Shown piece by piece: positions 8,761 through 12,739 of a stretch of 37,132 bases of DNA (the first letter of the stretch is position 1; every line of letters starts with the position of its first letter). The stretch comes from an uncultured bacterium (GTDB lineage: Bacteria; Patescibacteriota; Gracilibacteria; Absconditabacterales; Absconditicoccaceae), in the NCBI GenBank assembly GCA_903918675.1, contig CAIXFE010000002.1, positions 1 through 37,132 of the forward strand, in the 5' to 3' direction. Below the pieces are notes generated by a model. The model was not told the DNA's origin. It worked only from the letters and a program-made list of their open reading frames with translations, and searched no databases. A program made the position numbers and the translations under genes.

Positions 8761-8889
8761 CTTAAAATGAAAAATCTTTTGTAGCATAACTTTACACAAT
8801 CACATATAATTATACATTTTCTTGTAAAATCTCTTGCATTTATGTAAATTATGATTACTATTCTACCACTTTATTCTTTTTCAACTCCC

Positions 8890-9696
8890 ATGAAAAAACT
8901 TAGCGATACACTTCAATCACTTAGAGAAGCTCATGGATATACACAGGAAGAGCTTGCTCGTATGCTCAATATCAGCAGAGTAACTCTTGCAAATATTGAG
9001 TCTGGGAAGAGAGCAATCTCCAAGGAAGAACTCGTGCAATACGCTAATATCTTCGATATTCCTGCCGAAGCCATTAAGCAAGGAATTTTTGAGATTCCCA
9101 AGAAAAAAGTAATACCTGGCAATCTCGCTAAATTCAAAGAGCTTTTGCTATACATATTGTACAAAGTAGGCATGAAGCCTAATGTAGGAAAAACTGTACT
9201 CTACAAACTCCTCTATTTCTGTGATTTCGACTACTACGAAAAATATGGACAAAGCATGACGGGAATGAATTATATCAAATTGCCTATGTGACCTGCTCCA
9301 TATAAATTCGATAAGATCATGCAAGATATGGAAGAGAACAAAGAACTCTTAGTAGTAGACGCTGAATATATGTGATATCATCAACAAAGACTCATCTGAA
9401 ATAGACAATTCCAGAATGTTTTTTCACACCAAGAATATGAAATTATAGACGAAATACTCAAAAATCTTTCCAATGCCAACGCCAAAGAAATCTCTAATTA
9501 TTCTCATGAAGATGCCCCACGAAAAAAAACTGACAGCATGGAAATAATTGACTACAATCTAGTCAGACAGAGAGATTATCCATATTCTATTCTTGCAAGA
9601 GAACAAAAAAAGGCTCAAGCTTTTGCCGAAATAAAATCTAGTGGCATGTTTGACGATTTAGCTGATGAGTCCGATTATTATGAGAGATATAGATAA
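8890..9696 (+). CDS. HTH-Panacea (DUF4065) antitoxin-like protein
   Basis: 268 residues. Residues 1-60 form an XRE-type helix-turn-helix (LREAHGYTQEELARMLNISR, then VTLANIESGKRAISKEEL). From about residue 95 comes a DUF4065/Panacea domain, seen in VLYKLLYFCDFDYYEKYG and MTGMNYIKLPMGPAPYKFDK (a GP pair with TGA Gly). Panacea domains are known antitoxins that pair with unrelated toxins; the HTH suggests autoregulation. An ATG at 8851 is in frame, but 8890 was chosen because it carries the common MKK start behind a T/C-rich leader and sits right before the HTH. The gene overlaps the toxin gene by 32 nt, the usual arrangement for a coupled pair. Confidence 0.85.
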
Positions 9697-10018
9697 TTTA
9701 ATATTTGGCGATATAGCGCTCGCAGAACTGCCATATACAGATGGATCAAAAACAAAGATAAGGCCAGTACTTATTCTCACAAGAGATAAGAATGATTATT
9801 TATTGATGAAAATTACATCAATCACAGATAAAAAAGAACAACTTGATATAGAAGTTTCTGGTGATTATGAAAATAATCTAGAAGCAATTTCAGTTATTAA
9901 AGTCAAAAAAATATCAACCTATTCCAAAGAAATATTGTTACAAAAATTATGAGTTTTGTGAGACAAGGAGTGTGGAATAGTTAGAAAAAATCTCAAGGAG
10001 TTCGTTGATAATTTGTAA
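9665..10018 (+). CDS. MazF/PemK-like toxin
   Basis: 117 residues, starting inside the last codons of the antitoxin gene. MazF-type signatures: FGDIALAELPYTDGSKTKIR, then PVLIL (the usual G-D-I...R-P-V-x-V pattern), and LLMKITSI near residue 45. Members cleave single-stranded mRNA. A second ATG at 9680 is possible. Two TGA glycines occur near the end (LGVLGDKECGIV). With the HTH-Panacea gene it forms a plausible type II toxin-antitoxin module. I do not know whether a Panacea/MazF pairing has been tested. Confidence 0.8.
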
Positions 10019-10301: not shown

Positions 10302-11096
10302 TTATATCAATGTTTTGAGGTAGAAAACAATCCTTTCCTTATCTTCTTTCTTCCGTTTCTTGATGATAGCATAGATGTATTCCTGATTGGAGTTTTTCAG
10401 CTTAAAAAATGGATCTTGTGGCACCTGTTCATCTACTTTGATTAAATGTCTCTGAGGAGCAAGCAACGATCCCTGGATCAGATCATCGATATATTGAATT
10501 TTTTTTTGGATATCTTTAGTCCCTAGACTCTTATAGTGGGCCATGAGTTCTGGGAATAGAACAAGAGATCATCTGATAATACTTTTGAGGTTGCGAGTTA
10601 TATCCTCTTTATTACTGTTTATATCAAATATTTTATATAGAGAAGCGGCATCTATTTCTCTCTCTAACTCATATAATTCTGCTCCTGTATGCTTAGCCGT
10701 ACTAAAGAGAAAAACTTTTTTCTTTTTGTTTATCACCAAATCTTTTATAATTGGGCAGAAATCGCCATCTCCGCTAAACAATATCATTGTATCAAAATTA
10801 TTTGTTTCTTCACTGATATAATACCCCATTTCTGTATCTACGTTTCCCTTGTTTTTACCTCATTTCTTCCTCAATACCTTGAAGTAGATATAAAAAGCAT
10901 CCTTATTTTTATACTTCTCTTGTAGCTTCAACGCCCAATTTTTTTGAGAGGGTTTTTCATCGCTATAAGCACCAAAAAAAAGCGTTTTGTTAATCTTAGA
11001 TTCTTTTTCTATCGCTTCAAAAAATTTATCCAAGTTAAATCTCCACCCCATGCTATATTGGGAGAAAAAGAGATTGGAGTAATCAATAAAAATCAT
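10302..11096 (-). CDS. NYN-domain (PIN-like, LabA/DUF88-type) ribonuclease
   Basis: 264 residues from ATG at 11096 to TAA. Acidic residues of the PIN/NYN fold are in place: D5 in MIFIDYSNLF, D87 in KNKGNVDTEM, D110 and D112 in LFSGDGDFCPIIK. The domain fills residues 1-150. A TGA Gly lies next to the KGGKNKGNVD loop and another joins the C-terminal part. That region (about 165-264) is basic and helical, with KKRKKEDKERIV, and may bind RNA. Family members are predicted metal-dependent RNases. A divergent small gene starts 59 bp away and the toxin module lies just downstream, so the gene sits in an accessory stretch. Confidence 0.85.
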
Positions 11097-11155
11097 AGTT
11101 TTTCACTTCGTAATTCACGTAAACATGCCGATTCAGATAAAACATATAAAAATAT

Positions 11156-11461
11156 GTGGTAATTATATCTGCCCTTTTGGGAAAATCAAGTGGTTTAGTA
11201 AAAATTTTGGAATATTCTGATTATCGTAACTTTCTCAAAGTTGTAGACAAAGCAAAGATTGCTTATACAAACAGTAGTCATGATATCCAGGAGCATTTCG
11301 TTGATATCACCCAACCCCAAAAATCCCACTTTAAGTTGGTAAAAAAAAGAAAAACTATCCAGGATATCTGAGGCACGATGCCAGAAAGATTACCCGCCAG
11401 CGATCATATCAAAGAAGCCAAGAAGAGAATGAGGCAGCAAAAGAAGTTAGGGAGGAAGTAA
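11156..11461 (+). CDS. small basic protein of unknown function
   Basis: 101 residues starting with GTG; an in-frame TAA nine bases upstream rules out a longer form. One TGA Gly. The C-terminus is strongly basic (LPASDHIKEAKKRMRQQKK). It is divergent from the NYN nuclease gene with 59 bp between them, so both may share a control region. Antitoxin or nucleic-acid binding would fit size and charge, but no family is recognised. It could also be an incidental open frame; coding is favoured by the in-frame TGA and continuous sense codons up to TAA. Confidence 0.5.
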
Positions 11462-12233: not shown

Positions 12234-12305
12234 GTACCCTCTTTACCTAAAGAGGGGGCAAGGTCCTTTGCGTAGTCAAAGGGGACCCGATAGGGTGGGA
12301 GATTT
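12234..12305. repeat. left palindromic element flanking the DUF559 gene
   Basis: Contains the perfect palindrome ccctctttacctaaagaggg (12237-12256), then a second hairpin with arms ggtcctttg and caaaggggacc, then ggtgggagattta. Its order of parts is the mirror image of the element at 12693-12739, so the two form degenerate inverted repeats around the gene. Confidence 0.6.
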
Positions 12306-12322
12306 ATTTTGTAACAACGCAT

Positions 12323-12691
12323 ATGTTTATACGTTACAACAATAAGCTCAAAGCGTATGCTCAAGAGAATAGGAAAGCTCCTACTCAAGCGGAATGATTG
12401 ATGTGGCATTGTTTATTGAAATGAGATAGACTATGATATAGATTCCTAAGACAGAAACCTATTGCCTGATACATACTAGACTTCTATTGCCCCAAGCTGA
12501 AGCTTTGTTTAGAAATAGATGGAGAAAGCCATGAATGATCTGGCGATTATGATGAGAAGAGAGATATGGTATTGAGAAACTTATGAATAAAAACTGTAAG
12601 ATACAGAAACGATGATGTATTGGATAATTTGGAAGGTGTAAGCCTTGATATAGAGAGCATTGTCACTACAAGAGAATCAGAAATGAAATAA
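12323..12691 (+). CDS. DUF559 (Vsr-like, PD-(D/E)XK) endonuclease-like protein
   Basis: 122 residues. The family pattern is clear: RKAPTQAEGLMWHCLLKG, then RLGYRFLRQKPIAGYILDFY, then KLKLCLEIDGESHEG. The acidic D (ILDFY) and E-x-D (LEIDGESH) form the predicted PD-(D/E)XK-type site. The C-terminus KTVRYRNDDVLDNLEGV is typical too. Several Gly, including those in AEGL, LKGD and IAGY, are TGA. The gene stands alone between inverted palindromic elements and its stop is 80 bp before the next gene. Biological role unknown; related folds act on mismatched or nicked DNA. Confidence 0.88.
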
Positions 12692-12692
12692 A

Positions 12693-12739
12693 AAATCCCC
12701 CGCCGTTCCGGCCCTCCCCCTTTACTCTAAGGGGGAACT
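12693..12739. repeat. right palindromic element flanking the DUF559 gene
   Basis: Begins aaatcccccgcc, continues through a ccgttccgg palindrome and ends in the hairpin ccccctttactctaaggggg (12716-12735). Reverse-complemented it follows the same order as the left element. It also aligns with an in-gene copy at 21656-21704, which begins aaatcccccgcc and ends gggggaa. Confidence 0.65.

Follow-up and report, generated by a model that had tools for sequence, protein, structure and literature searches.

A DUF559 nuclease gene between inverted triplex motifs as a candidate selfish mobile element

Intrastrand-triplex repeats have been known for more than two decades from hundreds of bacterial genomes and have no known origin, and the function of DUF559, a widespread domain, is likewise unknown. 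In the 37,132-base stretch of DNA analysed here (the window), a small DUF559 gene lies between two inverted, hairpin-forming repeats, which raises the question of whether gene and repeats are mere neighbours or belong together. We favour, with a probability of about 0.7, the answer that the DUF559 nuclease, with its Vsr/homing-endonuclease fold, and its two inverted triplex-motif ends constitute one selfish mobile element.

The nuclease and its flanking triplex motifs

The locus comprises the following features (positions in the window):

12323..12691, + strand: DUF559 (PF04480) PD-(D/E)XK nuclease coding sequence, 122 aa in genetic code 25 (profile match, alignment and model)
12237..12304, + strand: left triplex-motif unit, with hairpin, spacer and third strand (triplex-motif finder, folding)
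12695..12736, - strand: right triplex-motif unit, inverted, with hairpin, spacer hairpin and third strand (triplex-motif finder, folding)
12237..12736, no strand assigned: whole element, ~500 bp, with a few bases of uncertainty at its outer edge

In the same family, elements of this kind measured 480-584 bp. The left hairpin, CCCTCTTT-ACCT-AAAGAGGG (12237-12256), is followed by a spacer, in which two small hairpins lie at about 12265-12282 and 12286-12295, and by a G-rich arm, GGTGGGAGATTT, that ends at 12305; its third strand, GGGAGATTT (12297-12305), is the mirror of the purine arm if A is allowed to become T. The right hairpin, TCCCCCTT-TACTCT-AAGGGGGA (12715-12736), is inverted with respect to the left one, and the G-rich arm of its unit, AAATCCCCCGCC, starts at 12693; read on the - strand, this unit runs from TCCCCCTT-AGAGTA-AAGGGGGA through a spacer hairpin, GCCGGAACGGC, to the third strand, CGGGGGATTT. 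Folded as single-stranded DNA, both flanks performed better than their shuffles (z -2.6 for the left, -2.1 for the right). The initial annotation had described a DUF559 gene bracketed by inverted hairpins, and both hairpins and their G-rich arms were indeed located in mirror orientation; what it had missed is the mirror relation between each such arm and the purine arm of its hairpin.

A strict finder, requiring a hairpin of at least 7 pairs and at least 7 third-strand matches, returned two hits in the window, both beside DUF559, where shuffles average 0.05; its thresholds were fixed after the first examples, and the set of named genomes, the controls and the mirror-versus-direct test came later. 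Furthermore, all four DUF559 genes of the window genome (4/4) are located between inverted units.

The pairing code was derived from an alignment of 21 units, in which the G-rich arm is the mirror (reverse, not complement) of the hairpin purine arm and T may replace A, as in the pairs of purine arm and third strand AAAGAGGG/GGGAGATTT, AAAGGGAGA/AGAGGGATT, GAGAAGGAG/GAGGATGAG and GGGAGAGGG/GGGTGAGGG. Judged by its letters, this arm pattern is the antiparallel purine-motif triplex code (G·GC, A·AT, T·AT). Near DUF559, 128 units whose purine arm is not symmetric had a full-length third strand in mirror order alone, and 5 had one in direct order alone (p 6e-32); where units were chosen solely by their G positions, A was faced by A (114), T (139), C (8) and G (5), and a fixed-spacer test gave a signal at 3 nt, in the mirror register only. 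The mirror reading of the tail also outperformed its reverse-complement and direct-repeat alternatives. The window units possess the purine arm and mirrored third strand (G matching G, A or T matching A) by which PIT (potential intrastrand triplex) elements are recognised, and at the sequence level the flanking units are what Holder et al. 2015 (PMC4666352) describe as PIT elements or triplex motifs (TM). These authors showed triplex formation of TM-ECO in vitro by CD/NMR and linked triplex motifs to unstable E. coli loci; a stable triplex in vivo was not seen, mobility functions were never found beside the motifs, and DUF559 is absent from the text of their paper (PMC4666352).

The nuclease gene starts with ATG at 12323 and stops at 12689-12691, TGA being read as glycine in this Gracilibacteria/Absconditabacteria-like genome, where many TGA codons stand within otherwise open frames. 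With a match to PF04480 of 5.6e-27 (94.2 bits; curated cut-off 20.6) and the conserved PD-(D/E)XK residues, its product belongs to DUF559; since all residues invariant in a 36-sequence alignment are kept (R17 E24 W28 F41 R43 Q44 D53 F54 E64 H70 D77 R80), the protein is probably active. Its AlphaFold2 model (pLDDT 89, pTM 0.82) aligns with 3HRL, a structural-genomics endonuclease-like protein also matched by sequence (Z 15.0), with the homing endonuclease I-Bth0305I (PDB 3R3P; Z 13.2) and with Vsr (1CW0; Z 10.1), so that the predicted Vsr/EDxHD fold resembles those of homing endonuclease and Vsr. In Caulobacter, an SOS response of cells without a cytosine methyltransferase is reported to be due entirely to the DUF559 protein VsrA, which argues that at least one DUF559 member acts on DNA in vivo; the authors of that study read VsrA as a mismatch-repair enzyme (PMC12907096).

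The neighbourhood contains further genes. At 8848-10018 (+), an HTH plus Panacea (SocA-like) antitoxin gene is followed by a PemK/MazF-like toxin gene, likely forming a toxin-antitoxin pair, and at 10302-11162 (-) an NYN-domain (PIN-like RNase) protein is encoded. Elsewhere in the same genome, tandem tRNA-like repeats adjoin one DUF559 element (L001 1000-1330, C8).

Association with DUF559, solo copies and empty sites

Triplex motifs accompany DUF559 far beyond the window. Across named genomes of Bacteroidota, Pseudomonadota, Chloroflexota, Cyanobacteriota, Patescibacteria, Spirochaetes, Nitrospirae and other phyla, a motif lay within 250 bp of DUF559 at 58 of 78 loci and on both sides at 40 of 78, this set having been picked by similarity to one DUF559 protein. 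Ordinary genes of the same contigs had a motif in 10/143 cases and motifs on both sides in 1/143, and random positions gave 3.8% for any side and 0/608 for both. Likewise, 43 of the 61 Gracilibacteria DUF559 loci carried a motif within 250 bp and 21 did so on both sides, against 2/600 and 0/600 random positions. The strict motif is missing at about a quarter of the DUF559 loci, several of which by eye carry decayed or long-loop versions. The DUF559 gene ycjD of E. coli K-12 is followed directly by TM-ECO-like copies and has, by eye, clear motifs on one side only; the strict finder lists none there because these copies contain a stem mismatch, which it excludes. Plain complementarity between 5' and 3' flanks was also enriched at DUF559 loci, but is a weak measure.

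The two ends of an element also match each other. The strongest motifs of the two sides were inverted in 46 of 61 pairs, and the ends of one element had a median similarity of 0.76, against 0.36 for ends of different elements (p 1.7e-21). Moreover, elements with more similar DUF559 tend to have more similar motifs (rho 0.21, p 0.001, without correction for host phylogeny). In the open-access literature mentioning DUF559, as judged from titles, counts of occurrence and, in the most relevant paper, the passages concerned, no link to repeats was found; intrastrand triplex motifs were already known, and a report joining them to DUF559 was not found in that literature. As a separate observation, plasmid pAQ6 of Picosynechococcus PCC 7002 (L279) bears arrays of numerous hairpin units (CCCCCGATTCGGGGG with GGGGG arms) in the intergenic DNA 3' and 5' of a DUF559 gene, which there adjoins a DUF1156 methyltransferase gene.

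Many units stand without a nuclease. One exact unit variant was counted across 37 genomes, its reversed pattern giving zero hits; within the family, 13 of the 14 genomes with DUF559 carry it, against 0 of the 9 without the gene (p 1.2e-5), counts that share ancestry and include several incomplete metagenome bins, and by genus the split is 5/6 with against 0/9 without (p 0.002). The majority of units are solo: in G008, 21 pattern matches stand against 3 DUF559 genes, and of 30 unit loci examined, 28 were outside long reading frames, 2 in frame and 3 near DUF559. Solo, non-autonomous copies dependent on a nuclease gene, by which REPtrons are recognised, have their counterpart here, by analogy and not by homology. 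No match to a Y1 (HUH, Y1_Tnp) transposase was obtained in five of nine unit-carrying genomes of the genus, and a RAYT therefore seems not to be needed.

Sites with and without the element were also recovered. Orthologous intergenic sites lack it at L053, L003 and L048, and in G010, G022 and G048 DUF559 splits the single MnmA gene, which is uninterrupted in the other 34 genomes searched; in G031, of the genus of G022, the MnmA loop is empty and the surrounding DNA well conserved. ORF-less motifs occupy positions where a relative has DUF559 in the MnmA of G011 and in the Fmt of G004 (relative, G008), and one is located upstream of the G005 ortholog of the gene downstream in the window. Flanks at the empty sites have diverged, and insertion replaced ~10 host-loop codons in LepA and MnmA, which blurs target-site duplications. 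Relatives of the query are rare on plasmids (37/72,556 records) and phages (2/50,697), which are thus not the main vehicle. In E. coli, 3362 of 5375 genomes have most of the ycjD region. Absence of ycjD was rejected as a clean empty site, since strains without it carry an efflux operon there: in L095 and L096, an efflux-pump gene and a TetR regulator lie next to fabI, making this a variable locus at a triplex-motif site.

The initial annotation had likened the locus to REP elements and their RAYT, with a PD-(D/E)XK protein instead, and had called for scoring the flanks against other genes and for a search for empty sites. As an analogy this likeness gains from the flank enrichment (both sides at 40/78 DUF559 loci against 1/143), the solo copies that track DUF559 and the presence/absence polymorphism at MnmA and intergenic loci; as the repeats are rare beside ordinary genes and the insertions polymorphic, the proposal stands.

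The same data bear on a different view, namely that DUF559 is a homing endonuclease which colonised pre-existing triplex repeats, these spreading independently of the nuclease by replication slippage or recombination. ORF-less units where relatives have DUF559, the number of solo units in G008 and homing endonucleases as the nearest fold after 3HRL would all suit it. However, the repeat variant occurs in none of the nine family genomes lacking DUF559, and the two ends of one element are more alike than the ends of others, and we regard such colonisation as unlikely.

In-frame insertion into host proteins

About 30 DUF559 domains reside inside long reading frames that are open through both repeats. 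Hosts identified by Pfam and motif checks include the tRNA synthetases ValRS, LeuRS (five) and MetRS (two); other housekeeping-type proteins, namely riboflavin synthase (two), MetH, LepA, Fmt and MnmA (four); HrpA, UvrC, PrmC and Elp3-like radical SAM proteins (two); and, among restriction-modification and methylase proteins, HsdM or N6-methylases, MmeI (three) and HsdS. Two LepA loci with inserts in G003 are possibly strain variants. One LeuRS loop was hit in both Gracilibacteria and Bacteroidota. As in-frame cases also come from isolates, including Methylomonas (L105), Microcystis (L150) and Pseudanabaena (L167), assembly error in metagenome bins is not the cause, and as the frame is open and a splicing domain absent, a tolerated domain insertion is the simplest reading.

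Other sequences enter the same loops. The LeuRS of the window genome (L186, G000, C97) contains an in-frame PDDEXK_3/GxxExxY domain (PF13366, 1.5e-25) in the loop that holds the DUF559 element in G001, and nuclease insertions have a hot spot in this LeuRS loop. In the methionyl-tRNA formyltransferase of G001 (L216, C12), a serine-hydrolase domain (PF06821) sits in frame in the loop occupied by DUF559 in G008 and by a solo unit in G004. A second palindromic repeat family, GTCATTCTGAGCGAAGCGAAGAAT...CAGGATGAC, lies in frame in the same loops of the window genome's LepA (L199) and of the G009 MnmA (L072), and further short repeats, among them AAACGCCAAAACGCCAAAACGATAAAACG, lengthen the MnmA loops of G000, G008, G002 and G004 (L083, L084, L087, L088).

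These fusions might be useful ones, in which DUF559 has been recruited by its hosts to supply a working nuclease domain, with the hairpins as linkers or regulatory structures, and for restriction-modification or defence proteins such as MmeI, HsdM, HsdS and PglX a nuclease domain could help. We consider this very improbable, as most hosts are housekeeping enzymes unrelated to one another (tRNA synthetases, MnmA, LepA, Fmt, riboflavin synthase, MetH), sister genomes manage without the insert, many DUF559 copies are free-standing between genes, and the repeats are found without the nuclease too. Still harder to credit is the view that the hairpins terminate transcription or give some other RNA signal, that the gene between them is ordinary cargo, and that their enrichment near small mobile ORFs is due to chance: solo units are mostly intergenic (28/30), which speaks for it, but the window units have no T-tract and 0 terminator-like sites, an Rfam search of the window element gave no match, introns included, units also occur inside reading frames, and ordinary genes lack them; in addition, PIT/TM elements had neither promoter nor terminator activity in an earlier test, as far as its citation in PMC4666352 relates. 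Finally, its paired ends and its presence in essential genes make the element look like a self-splicing intron or bypassing element, removed or hopped over at the RNA or translation level, but with the frame open through both repeats and the nuclease in ~30 hosts removal is unneeded, many copies are intergenic, the window element matches no Rfam intron, and we reject this reading as scarcely plausible.

A possible mechanism and its relation to known systems

For the nuclease and its ends as one mobile element, architecture, triplex code, matching ends, ORF-less solo copies, the dependence of these copies on a DUF559 gene in the genome, and polymorphic as well as repeated in-frame insertion are established at the level of DNA sequence, and the nuclease presumably cuts the triplex motif. 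When a repeat becomes single-stranded during replication, transcription or repair, its purine strand would fold into the hairpin plus third strand; DUF559 might recognise this fold and nick or cut beside it. Repair could then copy the element into another triplex motif, a form of homing by which a solo repeat would gain a nuclease; copying to a new place would be rarer. Within coding sequence, the survivors would be only stop-free, in-frame insertions in tolerant loops.

A bolder claim is that DUF559 and triplex motifs form a categorically new class of transposable element, in which a PD-(D/E)XK enzyme recognises a folded triplex, moves autonomous copies and many solo repeats across phyla, and enters essential genes in frame without splicing. 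We hold it tentatively, at slightly less than even odds; if true, it would account for the origin and instability of PIT/TM repeats, those of E. coli included. The link gives a testable role to both DUF559 and the triplex motifs. To our knowledge, no earlier mobile element has DNA-triplex ends; the DUF559 element would, if our reading is true, be the first known, and many puzzling DUF559 "fusion" proteins would be selfish insertions.

To date, several systems share parts of this design. Rickettsia palindromic elements are palindromic repeats lying in frame within protein genes, as the repeats of DUF559 elements do, and we know of no nuclease partner for them. PIT/TM elements share the hairpin and mirrored third strand of the class II purine motif, the 3-nt second loop in most phyla, and dispersal, often as inverted pairs, at unstable loci; in E. 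coli they were reported from intergenic DNA, and no gene for mobility was identified (PMC4666352), whereas DUF559 units bound a nuclease gene, also occur inside reading frames and, in Gracilibacteria, have a second loop enlarged by an extra hairpin. The ShiLan insertion element is likewise an endonuclease element in a host gene, leaving the host frame stop-free with no splicing domain, but its HNH nuclease is read out of frame, its host is a phage methylase, and triplex repeats were not reported for it (PMC11855218). REP/RAYT systems (REPtrons) consist of short palindromic repeats, solo or in inverted pairs and occasionally inside genes, whose families flank and are tied to a small-nuclease gene (PMC3733652). 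In contrast, the DUF559 element has no HUH/Y1 transposase between its repeats, only DUF559, its enzyme is of the PD-(D/E)XK type and its repeat a triplex motif, and the unit alignment has no conserved columns for a GTAG or CGTC tag at the hairpin foot. The Vsr-fold homing endonuclease I-Bth0305I (PDB 3R3P), the closest solved homing-nuclease structure to our model, shares mobility and presence or absence at sites, whereas DUF559 lies outside introns and inteins, bounded by inverted repeats, at many unrelated sites. By analogy, the best explanation would be an element that works like REP/RAYT or a homing nuclease, assembled from unrelated parts.
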